Source of the DNA: a candidate division WOR-3 bacterium
GTDB lineage: Bacteria; Hydrothermota; Tepidihabitantia; Tepidihabitantales; Tepidihabitantaceae
Reading direction: 5' to 3'
Assembly: GCA_016867815.1 (NCBI GenBank)
Contig: VGIR01000025.1
Location: 1 to 36,251, forward strand
DNA: 36,251 nucleotides
The notes beneath the pieces were generated by a model. That model did not search any database. It had not been told where the DNA came from and worked only from the letters and a program-made list of their open reading frames with translations. The position numbers and the translations under genes are program-made. The stretch's first letter is position 1; every line of letters begins with the position of its first letter. Of the stretch, positions 1,463-21,760 are shown in pieces.

Positions 1463-2086
1463 CTACTGCTCCGGCGCGAGGTAGACCGCCTCGTAGAGGG
1501 CGATTGCTTTCTTGACCGCGAAGGCGGTCGCGCGCGAAGAGATGGTCGCGCCGGACACGGCATCGACGTCCTTGCCGACGGACAGCGCGCTCTTGCTGGT
1601 CTTGCCGATGAACTGCTCGAGGAAACGCCGGGTCGATATCGGCCGGCCGCGCTGCTCGACGTAGGACATCACAGCCATGTTCGTGACTTTGCCCGTCAGG
1701 TCAAGTGCGACGATGTAGTGCACCGGGCCCCACTTGCCGGGCTGCATCTCCATTACGGCAACGCCGGTCTTTTTCCCGTCCTTCGTGCCGAAGTAGAACG
1801 TCACCGTGTCGTTCACCGCGACATCGTCGGTCTTCGCCCCGGCCGGGTACATCGTCCACTTGCCGCCGCAGACGGCCTTGACCGCCGCGATCTGTTCGGC
1901 GGTTAGTGCCGTGGCCTCGGGCAGGACCTTGCCGGCGTCGGGGAACATTGCCTTCAGCGCCGCGTCGTGGTTCAGAAGTACCACCGCGCCGGCCGGGCCG
2001 GCAAACACGACCAGCAGTAGCGCCGTAATCAACCATCCATATCTCTTCACTATTCGCTTTCCTTTCTTCGCGTACACTGCAATCAC
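1463..2086 (-). CDS. FMN-binding domain protein (NqrC/RnfG-like, covalent flavin)
   Basis: A 207-residue protein with one N-terminal membrane segment (about residues 17-38) and an extracytoplasmic FMN-binding domain. The attachment motif DAVSGATISS is at residues 176-185; in this family FMN is linked by ApbE to the threonine (T181) through a phosphoester bond. GTG at 2086 overlaps the stop of the ApbE gene (GTGA). An internal GTG at 2050 has a better Shine-Dalgarno (AAAGGAAA) and may be the true start, leaving the membrane anchor complete. It is separate from the nqrC copy at 12100 and probably carries electrons outside the cytoplasmic membrane. Confidence 0.88.
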   Translation of the reverse strand: MIAVYAKKGKRIVKRYGWLITALLLVVFAGPAGAVVLLNHDAALKAMFPDAGKVLPEATALTAEQIAAVKAVCGGKWTMYPAGAKTDDVAVNDTVTFYFGTKDGKKTGVAVMEMQPGKWGPVHYIVALDLTGKVTNMAVMSYVEQRGRPISTRRFLEQFIGKTSKSALSVGKDVDAVSGATISSRATAFAVKKAIALYEAVYLAPEQ

Positions 2087-3204
2087 CGACCGGCAGGGGA
2101 AGTGGCTATTCCCTGCAATAGCGTGCTGTCCAGGGCGCTGGCCAGGCCGGGCGTGCAGAATGCTCGCATACTATCGTTGATCAATATCGCTTCCATGCCG
2201 CCGGTCTTCTCGACCAACGGCAGGGCGGCCACACCACGGAGGAATAGTATCTTGGACCAGCCTTGCGCCGTCAGCGGATCACGCATCACGATGGTCGTGC
2301 TTATCGTGCCCCGCTGGGGCCAGCCCGTTGCCGGGTCGATTATGTGGCAATAGCGAACGCTCTCCGCGGGGACCTGACCGGAACCCGCCGCGGCGTTCTG
2401 GAGCGTGTCCCGAGGCGGGCCCCAGAAGAAACGCTCGTAGTCACCGGAAGTGACGACCGCCAGGTTCGATGCCGCGATCAGCCCGACAAGACCGTCGCTT
2501 CGGGGTGAACGGATGCCGACCTTCCAGTTCTTGCCGCCCTTCTTGCCCATGGCGTAGACGTCGCCGCCGAGGTCGATGAGCGCGGAATCGACGCCCTCCT
2601 GCCGCAGCACGCGCGCCGCTTCGGCGAGGCCGTAGCCCTTGGCGATGCCGCCCAGGTCGATGGCAACATCCGGCCGGAGTTTGGTTACCCGGCCCGGTTC
2701 GAGTACGAGATTCCTGTAGCCGACGAGCTTGAGACAGGAGTCTATCGACCGCTGAGAAGGTACTGCCTGGCGGTCGCCGTAGAAACCCCACAGCTCCACC
2801 AGCGGCTTGATGGTGATGTCAAATGCGCCTCCCGAGACTTCGCTCACCGCGACCGCAGCCTTGACGACCTCGACCACCTCCGGGTCGGTAAGGGGCGTGT
2901 TGTTGACGTTGAAGGCGTAGACCGGGCTGGTCGAGTCCAGGAAGTTGAACTTGTGAGATATCTCCTCCAGCCGTCCGAAGGCGGCCGCAATTGCCTTGTC
3001 CGCAGTCTGCGCCGGACCCGTCGCCTGGATCGTGACGTAAGTGTCCATCATCAGCCGGGTCTGCTTGCGGACATCGGTCTTGCCCTGGCGGCAGGAGGGA
3101 AGCAGAAGGCCTGCCGCCAGGGCTACCAAAAGAGCGCTCCACGCCACCAGGTACGGCCTGCGAGGCGCAGCAGACCGCGGGCGGCGAGCGCTCATACGAC
3201 GCAT
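2083..3204 (-). CDS. apbE: ApbE-family FAD:protein FMN transferase homologue, lipoprotein
   Basis: A 373-residue ApbE homologue. The N-terminus has a hydrophobic stretch ending in the lipobox LLPSC (C38), so it should be a lipoprotein facing the periplasm. Family motifs include MDTYVTI (53-59), IDLGGIAKGYG (182-192), LIDLGGDVYA (209-218), VTSGDYERF (251-259) and HIIDPATGWP (287-296). ApbE moves FMN from FAD onto a threonine of NqrB/NqrC/RnfG-type proteins; the next gene encodes such a target. The C-terminal metal-site segment, usually ADALSTAL-like, here reads AQGWSKIL (313-320), so the usual Asp and Thr appear as Gln314 and Lys318 and activity is uncertain. Confidence 0.9.
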   Translation of the reverse strand: MRRMSARRPRSAAPRRPYLVAWSALLVALAAGLLLPSCRQGKTDVRKQTRLMMDTYVTIQATGPAQTADKAIAAAFGRLEEISHKFNFLDSTSPVYAFNVNNTPLTDPEVVEVVKAAVAVSEVSGGAFDITIKPLVELWGFYGDRQAVPSQRSIDSCLKLVGYRNLVLEPGRVTKLRPDVAIDLGGIAKGYGLAEAARVLRQEGVDSALIDLGGDVYAMGKKGGKNWKVGIRSPRSDGLVGLIAASNLAVVTSGDYERFFWGPPRDTLQNAAAGSGQVPAESVRYCHIIDPATGWPQRGTISTTIVMRDPLTAQGWSKILFLRGVAALPLVEKTGGMEAILINDSMRAFCTPGLASALDSTLLQGIATSPAGR

Positions 3205-4694: not shown

Positions 4695-5951
4695 CTATTC
4701 CTCGCGAGACCCGGCCGCCGGGGCTGCGGCGGTGGCGGCGGCCAGCAGGTAGAGTTCGGCCACGATGTCGCCGGGAAAGTGCAGCGCCCGGTCGAACCAG
4801 CCGCGGCGGTTGCTGCCTTTCTTGATGAGCTGCCTGACGTTCTGCCAGAAAGCCGGGAAGTAGGCCCAGGACAGGGCCAGCGAGCGCGCCAGCCATCCGG
4901 GCCGGATGCCGAAGATGCGCAACGGCGCGAGCAGACGCTCGAGACCCATGGCTACTTCCACGGGAGCGGTTGTCTGCGCCAGGAGCGCGGTCGCGAGGAA
5001 GAGGAGCAGCATGCGGGCGGTGAAGATGGCGCCGTCATGCAGCCCTGCCTCGGTGATCCGCAGGGGGCCGAACTCCCAGAGAACCTTGCCCCAGGGAGAG
5101 AAGATGACCGGCAGCAGGAACGACATCAGCAGTAGTGCCCAGATGCGCCCGAACCCGGCCGCGAGCCGGCCGAGTCCGACCCGACCCGCAAACGTAAGGA
5201 TAGCGAGCAGGCCGAAAACTGCCACGTAGAGCCGATAGTCGGAGAAGATGACAACGAGGAGCCCGATCGCGATCACAGCCGCGACCTTGAAGTCCGGGCG
5301 CAGCCGCCCAAGGAGACTCTGGGGACTTCGGGTTTCCGGGGGGCTGGGGTTCGGGTACTTGAATCCCGGAGTCCCTGGCTCCTTGATCCCTGCTCCGGAC
5401 TCCAGCCTCCGCACTGCCTGGATCGCTATGACCCCGGTCAGGACACCGGTCACAACGGCGGAGAGCCCGAGCCAGGGCCAGAGCCAGAGGACGCCGCTGC
5501 TGCGAATGAACAGCAGGTAGACCAGGGCCACTTGGGCCGCAATGTGGCTGACCGCTCCGCCGACACTGATGCCGACTAGTCCGAACGAGAACATGCCGCG
5601 GCCCGAGAGTTGAAAGAGCAGAATCATGACCAGGGCGCTCACCACGCCGCCGGAGAAGGAGAGAACGAACGTGGGCGTCAGGAACGTCCCCATGACCATC
5701 GAGCTGACCAGGGTTCGGAGCACCGCGAGTTCCACGGCGCTGGCCGGGCCGATGTAGACCATGGCGATAACCGTGATGATGTTGGCGAGCCCGAGTCGGA
5801 CCCCGGGGATAGGGTGCGGCAGCAGCGACTCGGCAACCTGCAGTACCGATGCACAGGCCACGAGCAGCGACAGCCGTACAATCCTGGACGATTGTCGATT
5901 GTCGATTGTCGATTGTCGATTCCCGGTCAATCGAAACTCGTCACTCGCCAT
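4695..5951 (-). CDS. Fusion of Gx transporter (HepS1-like) and EcfT/CbiQ transmembrane protein
   Basis: ATG 5951 has a good Shine-Dalgarno (GAGGA, about 8 bases upstream) and gives 418 residues. Residues ~24-182 are a Gx-transporter domain (LLPHPIPGVRLGLANIITV, LRTLVSS, GTFLTPTFVLSFSGG), an ECF-S-like membrane family once named heptaprenyl diphosphate synthase component I. Residues ~218-400 look like an EcfT/CbiQ T component with several helices and a cytoplasmic coupling region. The two are normally separate genes. The linker (about 183-217, rich in Pro, Gly and Ser) is encoded by sequence like the intergenic word repeats of this genome. No ECF ATPase lies nearby. Substrate unknown; a role in flavin or quinone supply is inference. 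Confidence 0.8.
   Translation of the reverse strand: MASDEFRLTGNRQSTIDNRQSSRIVRLSLLVACASVLQVAESLLPHPIPGVRLGLANIITVIAMVYIGPASAVELAVLRTLVSSMVMGTFLTPTFVLSFSGGVVSALVMILLFQLSGRGMFSFGLVGISVGGAVSHIAAQVALVYLLFIRSSGVLWLWPWLGLSAVVTGVLTGVIAIQAVRRLESGAGIKEPGTPGFKYPNPSPPETRSPQSLLGRLRPDFKVAAVIAIGLLVVIFSDYRLYVAVFGLLAILTFAGRVGLGRLAAGFGRIWALLLMSFLLPVIFSPWGKVLWEFGPLRITEAGLHDGAIFTARMLLLFLATALLAQTTAPVEVAMGLERLLAPLRIFGIRPGWLARSLALSWAYFPAFWQNVRQLIKKGSNRRGWFDRALHFPGDIVAELYLLAAATAAAPAAGSREE
5301..5405. repeat. Word-repeat tract inside coding sequence (linker)
   Basis: A low-complexity tract of GACTC/CTGG/TTCGGG-type words, including GAGTCCCTGGCTCCTTGATC, resembles the intergenic repeat tracts elsewhere in the window, but is in frame and encodes the linker between the Gx and EcfT domains. 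Confidence 0.5.
5889..5921. repeat. Tandem 7-mer repeat (CGATTGT, about 4.7 copies)
   Basis: Four full copies of CGATTGT and a partial fifth run head to tail. They lie within the first ~20 codons of the Gx/EcfT fusion gene. Because 7 is not a multiple of 3, gain or loss of a unit would shift the frame between the start codon and the first membrane helix. Confidence 0.85.
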
Positions 5952-5962
5952 TCGACAATTCC

Positions 5963-6346
5963 TCAATAGCTCTCGGCATCGTAGTCGCGGGACGCGCCTC
6001 TGACTTCGATCAGCACCCGGTTCGGAATGCACACTATGGTGCGGCCCGGAGTCCGTACCCAGCCGGCGTGCTTGCAGACTCCCTTGGGGCAGTCCGACTC
6101 GGCCACCCGGATGGCGCCGCCTCTGACCTCGATGCTCATCTCCGGTCCTGCCCTGTCGCCGATCGCTATCGTCTGGTCGCGGTCAAGCTGGTACGTGCCC
6201 ACCAGCCGGTTGTTCTGGAAGATGCGGGCGATCGGCCGCTCGCCCGCGGCCCGCGCCGCCCGGATCAGCGCCCATCCGGGCAGAGCCAGCAACGCAGCGA
6301 TGAGCAGGACGTCGAGTACCGTGAGTCTGCCAAGGTCACGCTTCAA
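5963..6346 (-). CDS. NusG domain II-like membrane-anchored protein
   Basis: A 127-residue protein with one N-terminal membrane helix (about residues 9-30) and a NusG_II domain (PF07009 type) with the family's conserved tail: ESDCPKGVCKHAGWV, then a third cysteine in IVCIPNRVLIEVRG (C86, C91, C106). The start is TTG at 6346, 12 bases after the kinase gene. This family very often lies beside Gx transporters, ApbE and Rnf/Nqr genes, as it does here, but its exact role is unknown. It ends 11 bases before the ATG of the transporter fusion, so the two are probably co-expressed. Confidence 0.86.
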   Translation of the reverse strand: MKRDLGRLTVLDVLLIAALLALPGWALIRAARAAGERPIARIFQNNRLVGTYQLDRDQTIAIGDRAGPEMSIEVRGGAIRVAESDCPKGVCKHAGWVRTPGRTIVCIPNRVLIEVRGASRDYDAESY

Positions 6347-7726: not shown

Positions 7727-8081
7727 CGGCCGGCACCGGCTTATCCAGGAACTTCTCTACGGGCAGGAATTCGCCGTCGGTTTCCGGCGAGAAGCGCAGC
7801 GGCGTGGTCTGGTGAATCGCGGTGACCATCAGGATCGGCGTCTTCGCGTAGTGCGGGTCTTTCCTCACCTGGTATGAGACGTCGAACCCGGCCGAGCCAG
7901 TCTCCATCATGACATCCAGCACGAGCAGATCCGGCCGGAACTCCCGTATCCTGGCCGATGCCTCCGCTGCCTTGGTGCACGCCTCGACTTCGTAGCCCGC
8001 TCCGGCGAGAACCGCCCGGGTCGCGGTGATGAAGTCAGCGTCGTCGTCAACGATGAGAATCCGCTTTCCCTTGGTTGTCAT
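7680..8081 (-). CDS. Receiver-only response regulator
   Basis: A 133-residue CheY-like receiver domain: acidic pocket DDD (12-14), phospho-acceptor D56 in LLVLDVMM, the switch threonine in LMVTAI and the conserved lysine in FLDKPV. There is no output domain, so it acts through a partner or in a phosphorelay. It overlaps the kinase gene downstream and its ATG overlaps the stop of the polyprenyl synthase gene. Confidence 0.9.
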
Positions 8082-8884
8082 TTTCCATCCTCCATAACTG
8101 ACGATAGCAGCCGCCCCAGCCCCCCGGCGACCCGAGGCGGGACGTGCTTGAGTGCGCGGCGGGCAGCGAAAGCCGCGTCGCCGGCAGCATCGCGGCAGTA
8201 CTTGACGCCTCCGCGCCGGGCGAGCGCTCGCTGGATCGCCCCCGGGCGCTCATCTTCGAGGTCCTCTGCGTCGTCCAGCAGCTGGTACGCGAGCCCGAAC
8301 TGCCGCCCGAATTCCTCCAGCGCGGCAAGCTCCGCACTGGCAGCCTTGCCCAGCAGGCCGCCGGTACGGCCGCAGAAGGCAAACAGGGAGGCCGTCTTCT
8401 TGTTGATGATATCGAAATACTGCTTCTGCGAACAGCTGGCGCCGGCGCCGATTCGTGCCTCCAGCCACTGCCCCTCGCACATCGTCCGCACCTCGCGCAC
8501 CAGCAGGTGCACAAGGCCGGGAGTATGCAGTTCCTCCAGCGCGGCCAGCCCCTGTACGAACAGCAGGTCGGCAAAGATCACCGCCGGCTTGACGCCGATG
8601 ACGCGGTGCAGCGCCGCGCCGTCGCGTCGCCGCAGGGCCGAGTCGATCACGTCATCGTGGATGAGCGAGGCCGTGTGGACGATCTCGACGATGGCTGCGG
8701 CCAGCACCGCGTCACGGTCGGGCCGCTCTCCGGTCGCGCCCGCAGCCAGCAGGAGCATGGCCGGACGCAGCCGCTTTCCCCGCAGCAGCACCGAGAAACG
8801 ACCGGTCGTCCGGTTGGCGATCTCCGCTTCGACGGCGTCGAGACCGCGGCGGATCGGCCGGTAGGCCGGACTCACTTCCTTCAT
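8078..8884 (-). CDS. Polyprenyl diphosphate synthase
   Basis: A 268-residue trans-prenyltransferase. It has the substrate-binding RGKRLRPAM segment (35-43), the first aspartate motif DDVID (77-81) followed by RRRD, and the second motif DDAED (204-208). It makes the long-chain prenyl diphosphate tail, here probably for menaquinone since a MenA-like gene precedes it. The family is usually about 320 residues; this one is short mainly after the second motif. ATG 8884 overlaps the stop of the prenyltransferase gene. Product chain length cannot be told by eye. Confidence 0.88.
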   Translation of the reverse strand: MKEVSPAYRPIRRGLDAVEAEIANRTTGRFSVLLRGKRLRPAMLLLAAGATGERPDRDAVLAAAIVEIVHTASLIHDDVIDSALRRRDGAALHRVIGVKPAVIFADLLFVQGLAALEELHTPGLVHLLVREVRTMCEGQWLEARIGAGASCSQKQYFDIINKKTASLFAFCGRTGGLLGKAASAELAALEEFGRQFGLAYQLLDDAEDLEDERPGAIQRALARRGGVKYCRDAAGDAAFAARRALKHVPPRVAGGLGRLLSSVMEDGK

Positions 8885-9792
8885 AGCCAGGCCGCCAGCG
8901 TCATGAAGACGCCGGTGGCGAGATGGGTGAGAATGATGGCCGCGTTGGCCGGCAGCAGCCGGGGCCGGTCGGCGTGGAACCGGTGGGCGCGGATGGCAGC
9001 GAACAGCGCAACCGGAACAGTCAGGAGGGCGAGCAGAGAGGCGGGAGCGAGGACTCCGGTCAAGACCAGGACGCCGATGAGTCCGTACGTGACAAGAAGC
9101 GTGGTGCTGAGCAGACGGCTCGCGGCCCGAGTCCCCATGACGACCACCAGGGTGCGCTTGCCGACTGCGCCGTCCGCCTCGACGTCCTGGAACTCGTTGA
9201 TGAACAGGACGAGACCCATCAGGAGTCCGATCGGCAGGCTCGCGATCAGGGCCGGAAGGGAGAGAGCTCGCGCCTGCACGAAGTACGCGCCGAAGGCGAC
9301 GACGGGTCCGCACCCGAGCACGCAGACGATTTCGCCCAGCCCGCTGCGTGAGCCGAGCCGCAGCGGCGGGGCCGTATAGAACCAGGCGATGACGAGGCCG
9401 ATGACGCCAACGACCAACAGAACCGAGCCGCCCGTACGGACGTTGAGATAGAGTCCGATTGCCGCGCAGAGCACGAGGCTCGTGATGCTTGCGTTCCGTA
9501 CCTGCCGGGGCGACAGCAGGCCATCCTGGATGACCTTGCTGCCTCCCGAGAACGGTGTGGCTTGCGTCAGTTGGTCGTCGCCGCTTCGGTAGTCGAAATA
9601 GTCGTTGGCCAGATTGCAGCCGGCATTGGCCAGTGCCGTTCCGATCATGGTAAGCCAGAACAGACCCCAGCTGAACGGATAGCCCGCAAAGCGTGCATAC
9701 GCCGCGCCGAATGCCGCAGGCACCAGCGTGCCGACGAAGAACGGCGCCCGAAGCGCGCGAAGCCAGACCGCCGGGCGTGATGCACTATGCAT
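8881..9792 (-). CDS. menA: UbiA-family prenyltransferase, probably MenA
   Basis: ATG 9792 gives 303 residues, the usual length for 1,4-dihydroxy-2-naphthoate polyprenyltransferase. Both Mg-prenyl-diphosphate motifs are present: N(60)LANDYFDYRSGDD and N(199)EFQDVEAD (N/DxxxD type). About eight to nine membrane helices are apparent. MenA joins the prenyl tail to DHNA to form demethylmenaquinone. A following polyprenyl synthase and a preceding Nqr complex fit quinone supply to that pump. No other men gene is in the window, so another UbiA-type substrate cannot be excluded. Confidence 0.82.
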   Translation of the reverse strand: MHSASRPAVWLRALRAPFFVGTLVPAAFGAAYARFAGYPFSWGLFWLTMIGTALANAGCNLANDYFDYRSGDDQLTQATPFSGGSKVIQDGLLSPRQVRNASITSLVLCAAIGLYLNVRTGGSVLLVVGVIGLVIAWFYTAPPLRLGSRSGLGEIVCVLGCGPVVAFGAYFVQARALSLPALIASLPIGLLMGLVLFINEFQDVEADGAVGKRTLVVVMGTRAASRLLSTTLLVTYGLIGVLVLTGVLAPASLLALLTVPVALFAAIRAHRFHADRPRLLPANAAIILTHLATGVFMTLAAWL

Positions 9793-9811
9793 ATTGCATT
9801 GTGCCTGAGAA

Positions 9812-10882
9812 TCAGAACTTGTCGAAGTAGATATGCTCGGCCGCGATGCCCAGGCGGGGCAGCACCCGCATTGCCGCGTCAATCATCGGCGGCGGGCCGC
9901 AGAGCACGGCTTCTTTGGCGCCGTTCGGGTTCACGTGCCGGGCGGCTACCTGAGTCACGAACCCGACGTCGCCGGTCCAATTGTCCTCGGGCCGCGGTTC
10001 CGAAAGCGCCGGGAAGTAGCGGAAGTTGGTGAACTTCCTCTCCAGGTCGCGGAAGACGTCGACGTAGAACAGGTCGCGCCGGGTCCGTGCTCCAAAGAAG
10101 AGAGTCGTCTTGCGCGGCATGCCCTGCTCGGCGAGGTGCATTACGATCGAGCGCATGGGCGCCATTCCCGAGCCGCCGCCGATGGCGACGATTTCGCGAT
10201 CTGAGTCCTCGCGCAGGAAGAAATCGCCGAACGGCCCGGTCAGCCTAACCCGGTCGCCCACCGCCAGTGCCTTGTGGATCCAGCCGGTGCAGAGCCCGCC
10301 CGAGACGTAGCGAATGATGAGCTCAAAGACGTTACGGCCCGACGGTGGGCTGGCAATCGAGTAGGCGCGAAACTGGTCAGTGCCGGGAACGAGCAGCTGT
10401 ACGTACTGGCCGGGCTTGAAGTCGAGGGCAGTCCCGCCAAGGTCGAAGCGCACCAGCTTGGTGTCGTACGTCAGGGACTCGAGGGCGGAGACCGTGCCCT
10501 CGTACTCTTTTGCCGCGAGCATGCTCTCGGGCAGGGTCACTTCGATGTTCCGCTGGACACGGACCTGGCAGGCGAGCCGGATGCCCTGCTCGCGTTCCTG
10601 CCGCGTCACGAACACCGTCTCGGTCGGCAGCATCTCGCCCCCGCCGGAGACGACCCGTATCTTGCAGAGCCCGCAGGTCGCCTTGCCGCCGCAGGCCGAG
10701 GGGACGAACAGCTTGTTCTGGTTCAGTGTCGATAACAGGGTGTCGCCGCCCTCAACCTTGATGGTGCGTGACTTGTTGACAGTTATGGTGCACTCTTCGT
10801 GGCTGACGAGGAACCGCTCGGCGACAAGCAGGGCAACCGCGATTACGAGGATCAGCCCGCCGACCAGGATGACAGTTATCAC
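9812..10882 (-). CDS. nqrF: Na+-NQR subunit F (NADH-oxidising flavoprotein)
   Basis: The GTG at 10882 overlaps the nqrE stop (GTGA) and gives 356 residues. One N-terminal helix is followed by a plant-type [2Fe-2S] domain (CGGKATCGLC and a later Cys in RLACQ), an FAD domain (RAYSIAS) and an NAD domain (GGGSGMAP, GARTRRDLFY, CGPPPMID). NqrF takes electrons from NADH and passes them through FAD and the 2Fe-2S centre to the membrane subunits. This subunit distinguishes Nqr from Rnf, which uses RnfB instead. The longer open frame upstream is out-of-frame nqrE sequence. Confidence 0.93.
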   Translation of the reverse strand: MITVILVGGLILVIAVALLVAERFLVSHEECTITVNKSRTIKVEGGDTLLSTLNQNKLFVPSACGGKATCGLCKIRVVSGGGEMLPTETVFVTRQEREQGIRLACQVRVQRNIEVTLPESMLAAKEYEGTVSALESLTYDTKLVRFDLGGTALDFKPGQYVQLLVPGTDQFRAYSIASPPSGRNVFELIIRYVSGGLCTGWIHKALAVGDRVRLTGPFGDFFLREDSDREIVAIGGGSGMAPMRSIVMHLAEQGMPRKTTLFFGARTRRDLFYVDVFRDLERKFTNFRYFPALSEPRPEDNWTGDVGFVTQVAARHVNPNGAKEAVLCGPPPMIDAAMRVLPRLGIAAEHIYFDKF

Positions 10883-11469
10883 TGGATTGCCACCATGCCA
10901 GAGAAGCCGATGAAGGCGAGCGCAAGGATCCCCGCGATGACCATCGTGATTCCGGCTCCGCGCAGATCCGCAGGAACATCTCCGACCAGCTCCAGGCGCT
11001 CGCGAATCCCGGCGATGATGGTCGTTGCTACGCCCCAGCCGACGCCCGTGCCAATGGAGAACGTCACCGTTTGCCAGAGATTGTATTCGCGCAGCATGAC
11101 GAAGAGCGATACCGCGAGGACCGCGCAATTGACGGTGATCAGCGGAAGAAAGACGCCGAAGCTTGCGTGCAGGGCCGGAAAGAAACGGGAGACGAGCATC
11201 TCGACCAGCTGCACGGCGCTGGCGATGACGATGATGAAGACCAGGAACGACATCACCTCGGAGTGGGTAGGGACCAGCAGGAAGCGGTAGATTATCCAGT
11301 TGAGCGGGCCGATGATGGCCAGTACGAAGGTGACCGCTACGCCCATGCCGGTCGCGGTATCCACCCGGCGCGACATCGCCAGCATCGGGCACATGCCGAT
11401 CAGGTAGGTGAGCGCGATGTTGTGGGTGAAGACCGCGGCGACGAGGATGACGAGCGGGTTGAGCGTCAT
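10879..11469 (-). CDS. nqrE: Na+-NQR subunit E
   Basis: A 196-residue integral membrane protein with six hydrophobic segments and NqrE/RnfA-family motifs such as FTHNIALTYLIGMCP near the N-terminus and PLITVNCAVL in the middle. The conserved cysteines (GMCP and NCAVL) are those that hold the intramembrane iron centre shared between D and E. Its start is 4 bases after nqrD and its stop overlaps nqrF. Confidence 0.93.
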   Translation of the reverse strand: MTLNPLVILVAAVFTHNIALTYLIGMCPMLAMSRRVDTATGMGVAVTFVLAIIGPLNWIIYRFLLVPTHSEVMSFLVFIIVIASAVQLVEMLVSRFFPALHASFGVFLPLITVNCAVLAVSLFVMLREYNLWQTVTFSIGTGVGWGVATTIIAGIRERLELVGDVPADLRGAGITMVIAGILALAFIGFSGMVAIQ

Positions 11470-11473
11470 GGCC

Positions 11474-12103
11474 TTACTCCTGCTCCGCCGGTTTGAGTTT
11501 TGCCACCCGGCGGAAAACCCAGTAGTAGATCGCGAGCAGGAACCACGCGCCCTGGGCCATCGTGATCACCACCCAGGGCGGGAAATCCAGCGGCATCACC
11601 CGGACGTTCAGGAGCGTGCCGAAGCCGAGGATTTCGCGGATGATCCCGAGGATGACAAGGGTGTAGAGGTAGCTCATGCTCGAGCCGAGCCCGTCAAGGA
11701 ACGACAGCCAGGCGCCGTTCTTGATGGCGAACGCCTCCTGCCGACCCATGACGATGCAGTTGGTTATGATCAACCCGACGTACGGTCCGAGCTGGGAGCT
11801 GATCAGAGGGAAGTTCGCCTTCAGGAACTGATCGACGATGATGACGAAGGTCGAAGTCACGATCATGTAGGTTATCATCCGGTACTGCGGCGGTATCAGC
11901 TTCCGCATTAGGGCGATCAACGAAGACGAGATGGTAACTACGAAGACCACGCCGAGTCCCATGGCGATGGCGTTCTCCAGCTTGTTCGAGACGGCCAGCA
12001 CCGAGCAGAGCCCAAGTAGCTGGTAGGTGACCGCATTCTCCTTGAAGAACCCGGCAATGAAAGTCCGCCAGGGCCGGGTGTAGGCGATGCGACGGAGATT
12101 CAC
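11474..12103 (-). CDS. nqrD: Na+-NQR subunit D
   Basis: A 209-residue membrane protein of the NqrD/RnfE family with the conserved LLGLCSVLAVS and GLIITNCIVMGRQEAFA segments, whose cysteines pair with those of NqrE around the membrane iron centre. The start is GTG, overlapping the nqrC stop (GTGA). The C-terminus is soluble and charged. Confidence 0.93.
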   Translation of the reverse strand: MNLRRIAYTRPWRTFIAGFFKENAVTYQLLGLCSVLAVSNKLENAIAMGLGVVFVVTISSSLIALMRKLIPPQYRMITYMIVTSTFVIIVDQFLKANFPLISSQLGPYVGLIITNCIVMGRQEAFAIKNGAWLSFLDGLGSSMSYLYTLVILGIIREILGFGTLLNVRVMPLDFPPWVVITMAQGAWFLLAIYYWVFRRVAKLKPAEQE

Positions 12104-12681
12104 TGCGCCTCACCCTTTGCCGTCCGCAGCCGCAGCGCGGCAGCGCTGACGATCGTCACCAGTGCCTGCGAACTGAGCGTCGCACCGGAGATGGCATCTA
12201 CCTCGTTGGGCAGCGACGCCTTGTGACGCAGCGCGAGGTCGAGCGGCTCGGTCGCGGTCTTGCCTCTATAGGTAGCGAGATAGCCGGGCTCCTTGATCCG
12301 GTCGCCGAGCCCGGGCGTCTCTTCCTGTGAGAGCACGCGGACGCTGGCGATATGCGTGACGGCCGAGTCGAAGGTCGCGATACCTTCAATCATTCCCCAG
12401 AGGCCGCGACCCCTGAATTCGTAGATAACCAGCGTTTCGGCGACGAACCACGCCTCTCCACTGCCGGTCTCTTCCCTTACCTGTCGCTCAAAGACCTCCC
12501 TGAAGTCGGCCTGGGTCCAGGGGATGCCGGCCGCGGTCAGGACATTGGTCTTCAGCCGGGTCTCGCGGAAGCGCCTGACCGCCGGCGCCGAGTAGCTCTG
12601 CGCGGCCAGGAGCATCGCCACCGAAACCACGCCGAGCACGACAATGAAGAGGAGATCGAGCAGCTTGCGCTTCAGGTTCAT
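12100..12681 (-). CDS. nqrC: Na+-NQR subunit C (covalent FMN)
   Basis: A 193-residue protein with an N-terminal membrane helix (about 8-27) and a periplasmic FMN-binding domain. The attachment motif is DAISGATLSS with FMN expected on T168, and the family ETPGLG motif is at 121-126. The order after nqrB and the ATGA overlap are typical. It is somewhat shorter than Vibrio NqrC (about 257 residues), closer to RnfG in length. Confidence 0.92.
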   Translation of the reverse strand: MNLKRKLLDLLFIVVLGVVSVAMLLAAQSYSAPAVRRFRETRLKTNVLTAAGIPWTQADFREVFERQVREETGSGEAWFVAETLVIYEFRGRGLWGMIEGIATFDSAVTHIASVRVLSQEETPGLGDRIKEPGYLATYRGKTATEPLDLALRHKASLPNEVDAISGATLSSQALVTIVSAAALRLRTAKGEAQ

Positions 12682-13775
12682 GCTGCGAGCCTTCGCACCT
12701 TCGTGGTCGCCCGCCGGTATGAGATGTTGACGACCGTGCTGTCGATCAGCGGGGTGACGGCGTTCATCAAGAGGATGGCGAACATCACGCTCTCAGGCAG
12801 GCCGGACAGGGCGCGGATCAACACGGTCAGGATCCCGAGCATGAGGCCGTAGACCCATCGGCCGGTGAAGGTGAACGGCGACGTCACCGGGTCATTGGCC
12901 ATGAAGAAGGCTCCGAACATCAGCCCGCCGGAAAGGAGCTGGAACCAGACCGGCGCGACCCGCCCGGGCATCAATCCGCGCAGGACCAGCGCCGAAACCG
13001 CCACGCTCCCGAGGTAGGACACCGGCACTCGCCAGTCCCCGGCCCGGGTCAAAACGACGAACAGCCCGCCGAGCAGGATGCCGATGCGGAATGTCTCGCC
13101 CACGCACCCGGGCGCGTGGCCCAGCAGCAGCGATATCGGATCGGCGGAGATGAGCTGCGAGCCTTTGAAGTCGATCAGCGGCGTCGCCTGGGTCGTGGCG
13201 TCAACCGTCCATTTCACGAACCCGCCCGCTCCGCCCCAGTGCATCTTGCCCCACATCGTCGCGAAGTAGCTCGGGAAGGCGAGGCTGACGAAGAGCCGGC
13301 CGACCAGCGCGGGGTTGAAGATGTTGCGCCCGGTCCCGCCGAAAACCTCCTTGCCGAAGAAGGTCCCGAAGAAGATGCCGACCGCGACGATCCAGAGCGG
13401 CGTCGTCGGCGGCAGCACCAGCGGGAAGATGAGGCCGGTGACAAGGAAGCCTTCGTGGATCGGCTTGCGGCGGGCCATCGCGAACGCGACCTCGACCATT
13501 CCGCCGACCGCATAGGAGGTGGCGATCATCGCCGCCACGTACCAGCCGTAGAAGTAGATGCCGGCCAGGGCGGCCGGGACGAGGCCGATGATGACCAGCG
13601 ACATCATCCGTTTGATGTCCATGCCGTCGGACAGGAATGGCGCGGCCTTGGCCGTTTTGTCCGTGCCGAGCAGCGCCTCGTCGAGCGCCTCGGTCACCGG
13701 CTGGAGCCGCTTGAGCGGCCCCCTGCTGGTCAGCGCGTTGAGCCGGACGACGATGGCGTGCAGCAGCCTGCTCAT
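12678..13775 (-). CDS. nqrB: Na+-NQR subunit B
   Basis: A 365-residue membrane protein of the NqrB/RnfD family with about ten helices. Conserved segments include KPIHEGFLVTG, GGTGRNIFNPALVGR and MANDPVTSPFT. It is the main ion- and electron-carrying membrane subunit, with covalent FMN and a riboflavin site. The expected FMN attachment segment reads DATTQATPL (192-200), so the residue before AT is Gln rather than the usual Gly. The start overlaps the end of the A-subunit gene. Confidence 0.92.
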   Translation of the reverse strand: MSRLLHAIVVRLNALTSRGPLKRLQPVTEALDEALLGTDKTAKAAPFLSDGMDIKRMMSLVIIGLVPAALAGIYFYGWYVAAMIATSYAVGGMVEVAFAMARRKPIHEGFLVTGLIFPLVLPPTTPLWIVAVGIFFGTFFGKEVFGGTGRNIFNPALVGRLFVSLAFPSYFATMWGKMHWGGAGGFVKWTVDATTQATPLIDFKGSQLISADPISLLLGHAPGCVGETFRIGILLGGLFVVLTRAGDWRVPVSYLGSVAVSALVLRGLMPGRVAPVWFQLLSGGLMFGAFFMANDPVTSPFTFTGRWVYGLMLGILTVLIRALSGLPESVMFAILLMNAVTPLIDSTVVNISYRRATTKVRRLAA

Positions 13776-15274
13776 CGGATGCTCTTCACCCCCTTGTACT
13801 CCTCGATGCCCTTGAGGTCAAACCTCGGTACGACACACGACGAGTTGTCGCAGCCGACCTCGACCAGCTGCGTTCTGGCATCGGCGATGCGGCGGGCGAG
13901 CGGAATCTTGGATGGGCACACGAGGGTGCAGAGGTTGCAGTCGATGCAGTTGAACGCGCCGTAGCGCACCAGGGTCTCATCAATGTTGCGGCGCGACTGG
14001 CGGTAGATGAGCTGCGGGATGATGCGCACCGGGCAGGCCCGGGCACACCAACCGCACTGGATACAGGGCCGCTCTTCACCGTGCCGGTTGGTATTTGCGG
14101 CCTTCTTCACCGGCAGCCAGGCGGGAACGAAGCTGCGCGAGAACGACTCGCTGTGCAGTCCGGGACGAGCGAATGCGAACGGCAGCCGCCGATTATCGTC
14201 GGGCACGGCAATTGCCATCGTCGCTGTACGATCGATCGGTCGCGTGAGATCGTCGATTGCCTGACCGGACAGGATGCTGTCGAGCACGATCTTCTGCATG
14301 AGGTCACCGGACTTGAGCCGGCCGGCGACGACCTGCTCGAAAGAACTGCCGATCCGCACCCGCCGGTATCCGGGTTTCCGGAATCCCGGGCCGGCAAGCG
14401 CGACCAGTCGCTCGATGACCGGGCGACCCTCGACCACGGCGTCACGCGCCGCCAGGACCGCCTGAACGTCGGCAACGACGACTCCGATGTTGGCCGCCGC
14501 GAAGCCGAAGGGAAAGTCCTCTTTGAGCACGGACCTGACCAGCATCTCGGTGAATTCCTGCGGGTAGCGGGGCTCGAGCGCGTGAATGGTCGTCTTGGGG
14601 TTCCCGGCAAGCGCTCGGGTCAGGCTGCGGACCAGGACGCTCGCCTCGTCGCTGACCGCCACATGGAAGCCGGCATTCGGAAGTACACGTCCGAGGATGG
14701 CGAGGCCCGTGGCAAACCCGGGCAACTCGCTTTCGCCGAGCAGCACGGCCGGGTTGGGTTTAAAGACGTCGGCGCCGACAAGGGTGACGATGACATGCCG
14801 CACCGACTCCGGTCCGATGACCGCCGAACGGTACCGGGTCGGGATGCCTTCGCGCGCCAGACCGGTTACGCCCGAGCGGTAAAGCAGGTCCTCGATTGTC
14901 TCGGGGCCCAGGCTCTGCCAGTCCGGGGATGCACCGTCGAGTCTGGTCCACGCGTCGGTGCCGTCGCCGTCGATTATGGCGGCGGCGACTTCACGGCCGC
15001 GGACTGTGACCCGGGTGATCTGCGCGACCGTGCCGCTGATCGTAGCGTGGACCGGCGAAGAGACCGTAGCATCGTCCCGGCCGATGACCTGGCCAGCGAA
15101 CACGCGCTCGCCCGGCTTGACCAGCGGCTCGAGCGGCACGCCGTAGCCCTGCAGCATGGGGATGACCACCCGGCGCGGCAGGCCGGGCGTCTCAACATCC
15201 GCCTGCGGCTGGCCCGCGTAGTGCCGGAAGCGCAGCCCGCCGCCGAACGTTCGGCGTCCCAGTATCCGGGTCAT
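13772..15274 (-). CDS. Nqr/Rnf-type subunit A with two [4Fe-4S] clusters (RnfC-like)
   Basis: A 500-residue protein in the nqrA position. The N-terminus is RnfC-like (VVIPMLQGYGVPLEPLVKPG, SSPVHATISGTV), as is the segment from YPQEF to VRIGSS. The C-terminus has two complete CxxCxxCxxxCP motifs, C404-C414 (CIQCGWCARACP) and C443-C453 (CIDCNLCTLVCP), typical of RnfC and absent from classical NqrA (about 440 residues). The glycine-rich loop of RnfC (GLGGAGFPT type) reads GLAREGIPT. It heads an operon ending in nqrF, with no RnfB gene. It might take electrons from a ferredoxin or act as an electron relay to quinone; neither is shown. Annotation pipelines could name it nqrA or rnfC. Confidence 0.88.
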   Translation of the reverse strand: MTRILGRRTFGGGLRFRHYAGQPQADVETPGLPRRVVIPMLQGYGVPLEPLVKPGERVFAGQVIGRDDATVSSPVHATISGTVAQITRVTVRGREVAAAIIDGDGTDAWTRLDGASPDWQSLGPETIEDLLYRSGVTGLAREGIPTRYRSAVIGPESVRHVIVTLVGADVFKPNPAVLLGESELPGFATGLAILGRVLPNAGFHVAVSDEASVLVRSLTRALAGNPKTTIHALEPRYPQEFTEMLVRSVLKEDFPFGFAAANIGVVVADVQAVLAARDAVVEGRPVIERLVALAGPGFRKPGYRRVRIGSSFEQVVAGRLKSGDLMQKIVLDSILSGQAIDDLTRPIDRTATMAIAVPDDNRRLPFAFARPGLHSESFSRSFVPAWLPVKKAANTNRHGEERPCIQCGWCARACPVRIIPQLIYRQSRRNIDETLVRYGAFNCIDCNLCTLVCPSKIPLARRIADARTQLVEVGCDNSSCVVPRFDLKGIEEYKGVKSIR

Positions 15275-15331: not shown

Positions 15332-15348
15332 GGCAAGTAGCGTGCCAG
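15332..15348 (-). promoter_or_regulatory. Sigma-54 promoter of the nqr operon
   Basis: On the minus strand the sequence reads CTGGCACGCTACTTGCC, which fits the sigma-54 consensus YTGGCACGNNNNTTGCW except for its last base, with exactly 10 bases between the -24 GG and the -12 GC. Transcription would start near 15321, leaving a leader of about 47 bases before the A-subunit ATG at 15274. The adjacent upstream genes encode a sigma-54 activator and kinase. Confidence 0.78.
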
Positions 15349-15478: not shown

Positions 15479-16891
15479 CTAACTCTGGGGATCCTCGGGA
15501 GTCCGGGGTTTGGACCTCGTGGCCTGCGGCTTGTGGCCCCGCGCCGCCCTGATGCCGAGCTTCTTCATCCGGTCGCGCAGGGTACCGCGGGCGAGGTGAA
15601 GGTGCATGGCCGCACGGGAGATGTTGCCATCGGAGGCGGCCAGTGCTTTGACGATGGTCTGCCGCTCGATGCCGGCCAGCTCGTCCCGCAGGGCGACTTT
15701 GAGCGTGCCGGAGCGGATGGACACGGTTTCGAGAAAGTCATGGGGAAGATGCGGCGGTTCGAGGACCTGGTCCTTCGTCATTACCAGGGCCGCCTCGACC
15801 ACGTGTTCGAGCTCGCGGATGTTGCCCGGCCAGGAATAGCGGCACAGGACGTCGAGCGCCGCCGAAGAGAACTCGCGGCCTTCAAGCCGGTCGTGCTTGC
15901 GCACGAAGTGCTCGACCAGTACAGAAATCTCGTCCTTGCGCTCGCGCAGCGGCGGCATCCGCAGGGTGACGGTGTTGAGGCGGTAGTACAGGTCCTCGCG
16001 GAAGCGTCCTTGAGCTACGAGCTGCGGGATATCCTGCTTGGTCGCGGCCACGACCCGCACGTCGGCCCGCAGCATCTTCTCGCCTCCGACCCGCTCGAAC
16101 TCGCGACTCTGCAACACCCGGAGCAGCTTGGGCTGCACCGACAGCGGCACGTCGTCCACCTCGTCCAGGAACAGCGTGCCACCCGCCGCCAGTTCGAACC
16201 GACCCGGCCGCGCCCGGATCGCGCCCGAGAACGCTCCCTCCTCATGGCCAAACAACTCGCTCTCGATCAGCGACTCGCGCAGCGTCACGCAGGACACCTT
16301 GACGAGCGGCCCCTGGCGACGCGGGCTGGAGTAGTGAATCGTCTCCGCCACCAGCTCCTTGCCCGTGCCGGTCTCACCGACCACGAGCACGTTCGCATCC
16401 GAGTCGGCCACCACGCAAATCTGCTCGAACAGCCGGCGCATCGAGCGCGACCGGCCGACCATACTGTGCAGCTTGTACTCAGAGTCCAGCGCCTGTCGCA
16501 GCGCCGCGTTCTCGCTCGACTTGGCCCGGTACTCGAAAAGCCGTTCGATCTTCACCAGCAGCTCGTCGGTCGTGAACGGCTTGGTCAGAAAATCGTACGC
16601 GCCGCCCCGCATCGCCTCCACTGCGGTCTGTACCGAGCCGTAGGCGGTCATCATCACAATCGATGTCTCGGGCCTCACCTGCCGGGCCTGGGCGAGTATC
16701 GTCATGCCGTCCATCCCGGGCAGCTTCATGTCCACCAGGGCGACGTCCCAGAACTCGTCGCGGAGCAACTGGAAGCCCTCGGTGCCGTCCCCGGTTCCGC
16801 GCACCTCGTAGCCAGCGTCGGTCAGCGCGTCGACCACGGTAAGGCGTTTCAGCTCCTCGTCCTCGATCACCAGCACGCGGCGCCTGACCAT
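15479..16891 (-). CDS. Sigma-54-dependent response regulator (NtrC family)
   Basis: ATG 16891 gives 470 residues: receiver domain (1-120; acidic pair E10/D11, phospho-acceptor D54 in ALVDMKLPG, K104), AAA+ domain with Walker A GETGTGKE (172-179), Walker B GGTLFLDEVDD (237-247), and a Fis-type helix-turn-helix near the C-terminus (NISRAAMHLHLARGTLRDRM). The sigma-54 contact loop is GAFSGA (219-224) instead of GAFTGA. It starts 2 bases after the kinase stop, forming a two-component pair, and sits directly upstream of a sigma-54 promoter that drives the nqr genes. Confidence 0.93.
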   Translation of the reverse strand: MVRRRVLVIEDEELKRLTVVDALTDAGYEVRGTGDGTEGFQLLRDEFWDVALVDMKLPGMDGMTILAQARQVRPETSIVMMTAYGSVQTAVEAMRGGAYDFLTKPFTTDELLVKIERLFEYRAKSSENAALRQALDSEYKLHSMVGRSRSMRRLFEQICVVADSDANVLVVGETGTGKELVAETIHYSSPRRQGPLVKVSCVTLRESLIESELFGHEEGAFSGAIRARPGRFELAAGGTLFLDEVDDVPLSVQPKLLRVLQSREFERVGGEKMLRADVRVVAATKQDIPQLVAQGRFREDLYYRLNTVTLRMPPLRERKDEISVLVEHFVRKHDRLEGREFSSAALDVLCRYSWPGNIRELEHVVEAALVMTKDQVLEPPHLPHDFLETVSIRSGTLKVALRDELAGIERQTIVKALAASDGNISRAAMHLHLARGTLRDRMKKLGIRAARGHKPQATRSKPRTPEDPQS

Positions 16892-16893
16892 GG

Positions 16894-17610
16894 CTAGCCC
16901 CGCGCCCGGTTCCGCGGCAGTCGCAGCGTGAAGGTCGAGCCCTTGCCGACTTCGCTCCTTACCGTGATTCCGCCCTGGTGCTGCTCGGCTATGCTCTGGG
17001 AAACCGCCAGGCCCAGTCCGGTACCGGTGCCCTGCTTGGTGGTGAAGAACGGATAGAATATCCGGGCGAGGTCCTCCGCGGGGATGCCGCGGCCGGTGTC
17101 GCCGACGCTGAGTTTGACCCACTCGGCATCGGCTTCGGTCGTTACCGCGAGCGTCCCGCCTGCGGTCATGCTCTCGATCGCGTTCTGGAGCAGATTGACG
17201 ATGATCTGCAGTATGGCGGGATGGTCGACCTGCACAACGGGCAGGCCTTTTTGCAGACTGCGCTTCAGCCTTATCCCGGACCGCGCCCGACGGTAATCGA
17301 CAAAGAAGAGCGACTTTTCCACCAGTTCATTCAGGTTGGCGTCCACGAGCGCCGGTGGGTTCTCGCGGGCGAGCCCGAGCAGTCGCTTGGTCAGCGTGGT
17401 CACCCGGAACAGCTCCTGCTCGGCCAGGGCCAGGTATTCCTTTTCGCGCTTTGCGTCCAGCTTGCCCGACCGCACGGTCCGGATGCAGTTGATGACTCCG
17501 TCCAGCGGGTTGTTGATCTCGTGCACCAGTCCGGTCACAAGCTTCGCACACATGATCCAGTCCTGCGTCTGCTCCAGCCCTTCATTGCTGGCTTTGGGCA
17601 ACTTCGCCAT
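16894..17610 (-). CDS. Soluble sensor histidine kinase (NtrB-like)
   Basis: From ATG 17610 the product is 238 residues, with HisKA phospho-acceptor H30 in GLVHEINNPLDG, N box (NLLQNAIESM), G1 (VGDTGRGIP), F box (FYPFFTTKQ) and G2 (GTGLGLAVS). It lacks membrane helices and an obvious input domain, so it is probably regulated by a partner protein or by an undetected N-terminal module. The frame stays open to 17790, adding 60 residues without recognisable features. No clear Shine-Dalgarno precedes ATG 17610. It is the cognate partner of the following sigma-54 regulator. Confidence 0.85.
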   Translation of the reverse strand: MAKLPKASNEGLEQTQDWIMCAKLVTGLVHEINNPLDGVINCIRTVRSGKLDAKREKEYLALAEQELFRVTTLTKRLLGLARENPPALVDANLNELVEKSLFFVDYRRARSGIRLKRSLQKGLPVVQVDHPAILQIIVNLLQNAIESMTAGGTLAVTTEADAEWVKLSVGDTGRGIPAEDLARIFYPFFTTKQGTGTGLGLAVSQSIAEQHQGGITVRSEVGKGSTFTLRLPRNRARG

Positions 17611-17855
17611 TGCCGACAGTCTATAGTGATCTGCGGAGAATGCCAGTGCGTCAAACCCGCGGGACGCAGCGAGACCCGGGCAGCCCCGGATCTCGCAGAA
17701 AAGGACCGGTTGGGTCTCCTCGATGGTTGTCGGCCTGCTTACTGCCCGGAAACCGACACCGAAGGGCCATCCCCGATCCAGTGCACGCATGTCCCGCCTT
17801 CGATAACTACCCGGTCTGCTGCACCGCAGCCCCGGATTGCCACTGCGGGGTCCAG

Positions 17856-19448: not shown

Positions 19449-20306
19449 ATGGGGACTGAGGAGATGAAAGAGATTCAGTTCGACAGGATCAAGGACGCCG
19501 TAGCGAAACTGTGCATCGACGCCAACTGCCTGCTCGGCGATGACGTGGTGCAGGCGCTCAAGGACGGCCTGAAGATCGAGGAGTCGCCCGCCGGCAAGGA
19601 CATCCTGAACCAGCTGCTCGAAAACGAGCAGATTGCCCGCAAGGAGATGATGCCCATCTGCCAGGACACCGGTTGGGCAGTAGTCTGGCTGAAACTGGGC
19701 TCCGGAGTCAGGGTACAGGGCGGCGAGCTCTACGATGCTGTCCAGCAGGGCGTGGCCAAGGGCTACAAGGACGGATACCTGCGCAAGTCAATAGTCAAAG
19801 ACCCGCTCCGGCGCGAGAACACCAAGGATAACACGCCGGCAATCATCTACGCCGACATCGTGCCCGGCGATGGGCTGGAGATTACCGTCCAGCCCAAGGG
19901 CGGCGGCTCTGAGAACATGTCCGAGGTAAAGATGCTCTCGGCCTCGGACGGCGCCGAGGGCATCAAGAAGTTCGTGGTCGACCGGGTGGCGCGGTCAAAA
20001 GCGAATCCTTGCCCGCCGGTTCTGGTCGGCGTCGGCATCGGCGGCACGTTCGAGAAGTGCGCGATGCTCGCCAAGCACTCGCTGCTGCGGGAGGTCGGCT
20101 CAATCCACCCCGACCCGTTCTACGCCGCGATGGAGAAGGAGCTGCTCGAGCGTGTGAACAAGCTGGGCATCGGGCCCCAGGGTCTCGGCGGACGCGTAAC
20201 CGCGCTGGCGGTCTTCGTCGAGGCTTTCCCATGCCACATCGCGACTATGCCCTGCGCCGTCAATATCAACTGCCACGCGGCACGGCACCAGACGGTGACG
20301 CTCTAG
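19449..20306 (+). CDS. Class I fumarase, alpha subunit
   Basis: A 285-residue catalytic N-terminal subunit of the two-subunit iron-sulfur fumarate hydratase. Cluster-binding cysteines are C71 in MPICQDTGW, C204 in GGTFEKCAML and one of the late cysteines in HIATMPCAVN (C269). It converts fumarate and malate in the TCA or reductive TCA pathway. Start: ATG 19449 arises from a repeat tract; ATG 19464 is preceded directly by GAGGAG, which is too close for a normal site, so the start remains open. The beta subunit follows within 10 bases. Confidence 0.93.
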   Translation: MGTEEMKEIQFDRIKDAVAKLCIDANCLLGDDVVQALKDGLKIEESPAGKDILNQLLENEQIARKEMMPICQDTGWAVVWLKLGSGVRVQGGELYDAVQQGVAKGYKDGYLRKSIVKDPLRRENTKDNTPAIIYADIVPGDGLEITVQPKGGGSENMSEVKMLSASDGAEGIKKFVVDRVARSKANPCPPVLVGVGIGGTFEKCAMLAKHSLLREVGSIHPDPFYAAMEKELLERVNKLGIGPQGLGGRVTALAVFVEAFPCHIATMPCAVNINCHAARHQTVTL

Positions 20307-20314
20307 GAGGCGAC

Positions 20315-20866
20315 ATGGCAAAGAAGATCACCGCCCCTTTGACCGCGGAGACCGTCAAAGACCTGCGCGCCGGAGACTCGGTCCTGATATCGGGCACCAT
20401 CTATACCGGCCGGGACCTCGCCCACAAACGGTTGACCGACTCGCTCAAGGCCGGGGAGAAGCTGCCCTTCGACCTGGCCGGCGCGGTCATCTACTACGTC
20501 GGGCCGTCACCGGCCAAGCCGGGGCAGGTCATCGGCTCGGCCGGGCCGACGACCAGCTATCGGATGGACGCGTATTCGCCGCAGTTGATGGAGAATGGCC
20601 TGCGCGGCATGATCGGCAAGGGCAACCGGACACCGGTGGTGCTGGACGCGATGAAGCAGCACGGCGCGGTCTACTTCGCCGCGGTCGGCGGCGCGGCCGC
20701 GCTTATGGCCCGGACCATCAAGGCGGCCAGGGTTATCGCCTACGATGACCTCGGTCCCGAGGCGGTGCGCGAACTGACGGTCGAGGATTTCCCGGCCATC
20801 GTCATCAACGACATGTACGGCGGCGACCTCTACGAACAGGGAGTCGCCAAGTACAAGAAAGACTGA
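20315..20866 (+). CDS. Class I fumarase, beta subunit
   Basis: A 183-residue FumC-terminal-type subunit, from ATG 20315 with a perfect AGGAGG 4 bases upstream. Recognisable motifs: LRAGDSVLISGTIYTGRD, YYVGPSPAKPGQVIGSAGPT, RMDAY, GKGNRT and the C-terminal FPAIVINDMYGGDLY. It supplies the substrate-binding half of the fumarase active site and completes the heteromer with the alpha subunit. Confidence 0.94.
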   Translation: MAKKITAPLTAETVKDLRAGDSVLISGTIYTGRDLAHKRLTDSLKAGEKLPFDLAGAVIYYVGPSPAKPGQVIGSAGPTTSYRMDAYSPQLMENGLRGMIGKGNRTPVVLDAMKQHGAVYFAAVGGAAALMARTIKAARVIAYDDLGPEAVRELTVEDFPAIVINDMYGGDLYEQGVAKYKKD

Positions 20867-20869
20867 CCC

Positions 20870-21643: not shown

Positions 21644-21646
21644 GAA

Positions 21647-21745
21647 CTGGACCAATGCAGAAGTCAAAATGCAGATATCAATGTGCAAAATGGCCCGGCC
21701 GGAACAATCTGCAGTCTGCAACCTGCAATCTGCAATCTGAATTGT
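21647..21745. repeat. Word-repeat tract before the flavoprotein gene
   Basis: TGCAGAT/TGCAAAAT words on the left and ATCTGCAGTCTGCAACCTGC words on the right are roughly complementary and can fold back. The tract fills the 117-base gap between the iron-sulfur and flavoprotein genes. Confidence 0.6.
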
Positions 21746-21760
21746 CGGGAGGGTTCTAGC

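Follow-up and report, generated by a model that had tools for sequence, protein, structure and literature searches.

The A–F operon and its subunits

The stretch of DNA analysed here, called the window (36,251 nucleotides; contig VGIR01000025.1 of assembly GCA_016867815.1), comes from a bacterium of candidate division WOR-3, which is the phylum Caldifarciminota at NCBI. Between positions 15274 and 9812 it carries six adjacent genes on the minus strand, here named A to F, which make up the gene set of a pump of the NQR/RNF type. Gene A (13772..15274) encodes a dicluster subunit of 500 amino acids, placed between RnfC and NqrA by Pfam and by trees, and is followed by gene B (12678..13775), a homologue of RnfD/NqrB (PF03116, NQR2_RnfD_RnfE, and alignments), and by gene C (12100..12681), an RnfG/NqrC homologue of RnfG size with an SGAT flavinylation motif (PF04205, FMN_bind, with alignment and lengths). 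Genes D (11474..12103) and E (10879..11469) are homologues of RnfE/NqrD and RnfA/NqrE, respectively, both assigned by PF02508 (Rnf-Nqr) and by tree, while gene F (9812..10882) encodes a short NqrF with [2Fe-2S], flavin adenine dinucleotide (FAD) and NADH domains (Pfam and NCBIfam nqrF), its GTG start codon overlapping the stop codon of E. No RnfB gene was found in the operon, as the original prediction had stated, and the one RnfB-type gene of the genome lies in a separate Rnf operon. An Rfam search of the window gave no matches. Operons of this type, called hybrid in the following as a description of their characters, were found in four genomes: that of the window, a second one of the same genus (G005) and two of another phylum (G227 and G191, with the hybrid loci L148 and L147).

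Subunit A brings together the RnfC_N, NQRA_SLBB and 4Fe-4S dicluster (Fer4) domains of Pfam, and falls below the NCBIfam cut-offs of both families, with 225.2 bits against 245.95 for rnfC and 115.6 against 321.05 for nqrA. The closest matches in the PDB were RnfC first and NqrA second, by AlphaFold model and by sequence alike. The two CxxCxxCxxxC motifs (C404-C453; 13916..14065, minus strand) read CIQCGWCARACP and CIDCNLCTLVCP, their eight cysteines standing at the RnfC positions and exactly at the coordinates originally given for the dicluster (14065-13916), and are predicted to hold two [4Fe-4S] clusters. These eight cysteines are invariant in all four hybrids, at an identity of about 30% between phyla, and are among the 102 of 464 alignment columns that are invariant across the four A proteins. 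The ferredoxin domain is conserved at 39-41%, versus 30% for the remainder of the protein.

The loops which in RnfC bind flavin mononucleotide (FMN) and NAD have degenerate counterparts in A (residues 134-148 and 163-180; 14735..14875, minus strand; alignment with RnfC and NqrA): GLGGAxFPT and NGxECEPxxTADHR of RnfC become GLAREGIPT and LVGADVFKPNPA in the window. Degeneration affects all four hybrids, less so L147 and L148, where EPF is kept, and A has probably lost the ability to serve as an NAD site. Moreover, A contains a linker of NqrA type (residues ~362-396; 14087..14191, minus strand), about 35 residues long, which is common to NqrA, absent from RnfC by alignment, and runs into TNxxGExRPC where NqrA reads NGGxRxM. 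One or two of these cysteines remain in some canonical NqrA proteins, where they align with C449 and C453, such being the trace expected from a lost cluster. In the window and G005, A is prolonged at its C-terminus by a tail in which CDNSSC is conserved (C475 and C480; 13775-13864); RnfC, NqrA and the A of the other two hybrids have no such tail.

In subunit B, an N-terminal extension corresponds in the alignment to the pair of amphiphilic helices of NqrB, and the position of G140/G141 reads VGG in the window and G005 and VGL in L147 and L148, followed by EG[FA]; VGL is also found in NqrB of Bacteroidota. Counterparts of the quinone-site features of NqrB (N-terminal amphiphilic helices, G140/G141 and E157-G158) are thereby recognised in B by alignment. 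In Vibrio cholerae NqrB they make up the quinone site, which lies 11.6 Å from riboflavin (PMC10643135). Both the extension and the VGG/VGL motif are missing in the B rows compared from Rnf and from NQR systems without an A subunit (A-less NQR, described below). They point to a quinone site in B, which is suggestive and not proof, since the extension may instead hold A. The insertion of about 50 residues of NqrB is lacking from the aligned B. Subunit C, with 193-202 amino acids versus 243-283 for NqrC, has the size of RnfG and lacks the NqrC insertion; FMN-threonine motifs are present in B and C of the window, and D and E provide the four cysteines that should hold the [2Fe-2S] cluster in the membrane. 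Subunit F combines the Fer2, FAD_binding_6 and NAD_binding_1 domains of Pfam and scores 294.0 bits, one bit short of the nqrF cut-off of 295. It had been called a canonical NqrF; the NqrF type stands, but 'canonical' goes a little too far, F being a short version without the insertion of about 40 residues typical of canonical NqrF (alignment and lengths).

Occurrence and phylogenetic position

The assembly is a draft of 3.37 Mb in 215 contigs. One of these (C8) holds a complete rnfCDGEAB operon, RnfC and RnfB included, and all related genes found elsewhere in the genome, namely one RnfC_N gene, two Rnf-Nqr membrane genes and one PF04060 RnfB-type gene, lie on that contig. Since the other Rnf genes form one complete operon, A–F constitutes a further complex in its own right, and does not represent an Rnf that draws its RnfB from another locus. 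An ordinary Rnf of that kind, for which the RnfB on C8 could be invoked, or else an artefact of assembly, is extremely unlikely: this RnfB belongs to a complete Rnf operon that already includes an RnfC, the gene order of the window is repeated in G005, in G227 and, for A-D, in G191, and the content of guanine and cytosine is even over the whole window.

Among 60 relatives searched, the same A was found in G005 alone (62% identity), where contig CAIVTL010000278.1 shows the order A-B-C-D-E-F-UbiA-polyprenyl synthase, as in the window. The second phylum was sampled by way of a metagenome-assembled genome labelled 'Deltaproteobacteria', and a hybrid A was present in 2 of its 395 sampled genomes, matched at full length with about 300 bits, the other matches in this phylum reaching at most 174 bits. 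These two, G227 and G191, are the sole representatives of their class in the sample. G227 has a complete A-F operon, with no RnfB in it; in G191 the genes A-D are followed by the contig end, and a canonical Rnf with RnfB lies on another contig (L149). The search proposed in the original prediction, for other operons with a dicluster A and NqrF and without RnfB, has yielded complete operons of this type in G005 and G227 and its first four genes in G191. This architecture is more than chance, as it recurs in three other genomes with the eight cysteines invariant. A scan of contigs with six peptide patterns returned the G005 locus (L009) and L010 alone; the reach of these patterns is limited to close relatives and the hybrids of the second phylum were missed, so that the type may well extend beyond these four genomes. 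The L010 match, from the Deltaproteobacteria, proved to be an ordinary Rnf with RnfB, and the loci of Gemmatirosa (L104) and Persicobacter (L105), considered on the basis of tblastn positions, are ordinary Rnf as well. As a separate observation, genes of multihaem cytochrome c type lie to either side of the hybrid operon in G227 (L148:1084-1998 and 7864-8862).

An NqrF is present in 19 of the 147 genomes from the window's phylum, the two hybrids and 17 others, and in the latter the operon reads B-C-D-E-F wherever it is not broken by a contig end. No A subunit was matched at these A-less loci by either A query, and the upstream genes of five of them show none. Such five-gene nqrBCDEF operons without recognisable A or RnfB are found in further families belonging to the class of the window (L071-L088, NqrF in 17 genomes) and on a plasmid of Ilyobacter (L106:3077-6932); B of these operons has no N-terminal extension. 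A-less NqrBCDEF has been noted before in Pseudothermotoga, Clostridium ultunense and Izimaplasma (PMC4148951, PMC5924567, PMC6256511). One genome, G047, has two A-less operons (L075, L076 and L078), one of which has B, D and E nearly identical to those of G053, from a different genus; this near-identity suggests a recent transfer. At another locus a gene resembling, by eye, flavodiiron proteins lies directly upstream of an A-less nqrB (L085:7547-8755).

Compared with known systems, the hybrid shares with Na+-NQR (NqrABCDEF, as in V. cholerae) the six subunits, the gene order, NqrF as NADH input, the lack of RnfB, the linker type in A, and the N-terminal extension and VGG/VGL motif of B. It differs in the intact dicluster of A, where canonical NqrA has no redox cofactors, in a B without the 50-residue insertion, an RnfG-sized C and an F without the NqrF insertion, and in its position outside canonical NQR in the best trees. 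With RNF (RnfABCDGE) it has in common the dicluster at the RnfC position, the RnfC_N domain, the size of C and an RnfD-like B lacking the NqrB insertion, whereas NqrF takes the place of RnfB, the RnfC loops for FMN and NAD are degenerate and A lies outside the RnfC clade. A-less NqrBCDEF resembles the hybrid in the short NqrF, the RnfG-sized C and the lack of RnfB and of the NqrB insertion; unlike in the hybrid, no A was found, and in the rows compared its B has neither N-terminal extension nor VGG/VGL.

In the tree of A, RnfC and NqrA each form one clade (100/100 in both cases) and the hybrids fall outside both. The case that had been named against the hybrid interpretation, an A inside RnfC with RnfB elsewhere, differs from what was found, with RnfB in its own complete operon and A outside RnfC. 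In the combined tree of B, D and E, systems bearing NqrF are split from Rnf at 100/100, and A-less and canonical NQR are placed together at 89/94 with the hybrids left out. A joint tree of D and E, which roots itself through the duplication that gave rise to these paralogues, again left the hybrids out of the group formed by A-less and canonical NQR (91/86 in D and 93/78 in E); in its D half the nearest Rnf proteins are the RnfE of Gemmatirosa and Persicobacter. The hybrid type branches before canonical NQR in these trees, the order of hybrids, canonical and A-less NQR not being firm. Independently of this order, a dicluster is present in a deep lineage bearing NqrF and absent from the canonical NqrA proteins examined.

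Another possible origin is by recombination, a canonical NqrA-type subunit having regained a ferredoxin domain from RnfC. A real RnfC is also present in the genome, and the ferredoxin domain of the hybrids is on average closer to RnfC than to NqrA. Nevertheless, separate trees of the two parts of A gave no support to a domain swap: the N-terminal part alone lies outside RnfC and NqrA, and so does the ferredoxin domain alone, outside RnfC at 95/92, although with less power, given its 70 columns. Furthermore, the NqrA-like linker continues directly into the cluster domain, the core subunits stand outside canonical NQR and not within it, and the type is found in two phyla, so that such a chimera is very unlikely. 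The term hybrid therefore describes the characters well, while a recombinant origin is not indicated by the tests.

In the account proposed for the origin of NQR, an RNF was duplicated, rnfB was lost, NqrF was recruited, and the cofactors of RnfC were lost later (PMC4014512). NqrA carries no cofactor (PMC12174285, PMC11889175), and its role in this cofactor-free state is unknown (PMC12174285). The hybrid is a transitional form as predicted by this accepted account, and the suggestion that it descends from an Rnf-to-Nqr intermediate is well supported by the trees together with the characters common to the four genomes. A living NqrF pump with the clusters of A in place represents the missing step of the model, and suggests an order in which the gain of NqrF, the decay of the FMN/NAD site and the appearance of quinone-site features all preceded cluster loss. 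No description of a dicluster NqrA or of a hybrid operon was found in the open literature, most subscription papers and preprints being outside the search.

Inferred electron path and possible exits

Taken together, we favour, with somewhat better than even confidence, an early-branching NQR-type redox-driven ion pump which keeps the two [4Fe-4S] clusters of RnfC in A, on an exit-side path. Its identity as a deep NqrF-bearing lineage with the dicluster kept is highly probable, and the mechanism as set out below has a slight balance in its favour. Gene content, cysteines, degenerate loops, linker, quinone-site features of B and tree position are read from the sequence, and from them we infer cofactors, path, ion and acceptor. 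By homology with NQR, electrons from NADH would enter at the FAD and [2Fe-2S] of F, pass through the [2Fe-2S] cluster between D and E to the FMN of C, and continue to the FMN and then the riboflavin of B, this flow being coupled to the export of Na+ (or H+). Riboflavin would hand them to a carrier of quinone type, bound at the site of B that resembles NqrB, and/or to a cytoplasmic acceptor by way of the two clusters of A. In RNF, the two clusters of RnfC are on the exit side, beside the riboflavin of RnfD (PMC9588780, PMC11889175), which passes electrons to the nearest one over 11.7 Å (PMC9588780); in NQR, riboflavin passes them to quinone over 11.6 Å (PMC10643135). By homology, the clusters of A would likewise lie on the exit side, beside the riboflavin of B, and the hybrid seems to keep both outlets, quinone and dicluster.

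A second entry had been proposed for the complex, with NADH at F and a ferredoxin-like donor at A, both feeding the riboflavin of B through F and the dicluster, respectively, and from there quinone. An intact and conserved dicluster beside a degenerate FMN/NAD site could indeed meet a soluble partner, and B carries quinone-site features. However, the clusters of RNF take electrons out of riboflavin and not in, electrons from A would skip the steps at D/E and C, on which pumping depends, and the nearby genes show no recognised dedicated donor. Dual entry is therefore improbable; the donor at A finds no direct support, the same clusters being exit-side in RNF (PMC9588780, PMC11889175). Given the exit-side place of the clusters in RNF, and since electrons entering at A would bypass the coupled path, exit through B and/or A is the likelier of the two.

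Equally improbable is a plain NADH:quinone oxidoreductase in which the clusters of A mainly help the protein to fold or to remain stable and conduct no electrons during turnover. Canonical NqrA is cofactor-free and thought to be stabilising (PMC12174285), and the quinone-site features of B fit this proposal too. Nevertheless, invariance of the cysteines at about 30% identity, in a domain more conserved than the remainder of A, exceeds the needs of a relict, though a structural role could explain it. A little less doubtful, but still unlikely, is a three-way pump with the riboflavin of B as branch point, connecting NADH through F, quinone at B and a cytoplasmic iron-sulfur or low-potential carrier at A by electron bifurcation or confurcation. 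If this were true, ion pumping would be tied to bifurcation or confurcation among three pools and an ancestral state of NQR would be preserved.

Several points weigh against the favoured exit-side pump. Approximately unbiased (AU) tests did not reject a grouping of the hybrids with canonical NQR (p-AU 0.26), a single clade of hybrids (0.48), or a position of the window and G005 on the Rnf side (0.24); on a smaller set, other orders of hybrids, canonical NQR, A-less NQR and Rnf were likewise not rejected. The loss of FMN is not certain in L147 and L148, which keep EPF of the FMN loop, and in E of G005 (L089:3841-4431) a threonine replaces one of the four [2Fe-2S] cysteines, VNC becoming VNT. 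The AlphaFold model of A (mean predicted local distance difference test score of 60) is usable for residues ~30-350 and unreliable from 360, and so in the cluster domain. All hybrid sequences come from draft genomes, and searches of the window's genome gave no MqnA/MqnD or MenD, which makes the quinone acceptor uncertain. Expression of this one operon would make it testable how NQR arose, why NqrA was retained and which way electrons run through the dicluster.

In this context, two genes following F bear on the acceptor. A MenA-like prenyltransferase of UbiA type (8881..9834, minus strand, start uncertain; Pfam, below the NCBIfam cut-offs) adjoins F, and next to it lies a polyprenyl diphosphate synthase (8078..9040, minus strand, start uncertain; Pfam and NCBIfam). 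Both are also beside the pump in G005, and they point to a prenylated carrier. As a guess, a quinone head group taken up from other cells would square the prenyltransferase with the negative searches for MqnA/MqnD and MenD.

Regulatory and neighbouring genes

Directly upstream of the operon, on the same strand, Pfam identifies a sigma-54-dependent response regulator (15479..17122) and a histidine kinase (16894..17790). In the gap before A, the sole exact match of the window to the -24/-12 sigma-54 consensus, TGGCACGCTACTTGC (15333..15347, minus strand), is a candidate promoter only. Neither L147 nor L148 showed an exact match of this kind, and the G005 contig starts at A.

On the other side of the pump, an ApbE flavin transferase (2083..3204, minus strand; PF02424 and NCBIfam) probably links FMN to B and C. 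Beside it, and outside A–F, lies the gene of a further FMN_bind protein that carries SGAT as a flavinylation motif (1463-2086), and a similar one is found in L089 (11687-12274). A link of the pump to the cluster at 19449-23401, which encodes fumarase alpha and beta, an iron-sulfur protein and a fumarate-reductase-like flavoprotein, was considered and rejected, this flavoprotein being present in all six genomes of the genus (87-90% identical in the other five) and the hybrid in two. Finally, the region 4695-6346, downstream of the pump, contains a protein with NusG domain II and a fused Hpre_diP_synt_I/CbiQ protein resembling energy-coupling factor transporters, in the same order as in G005.

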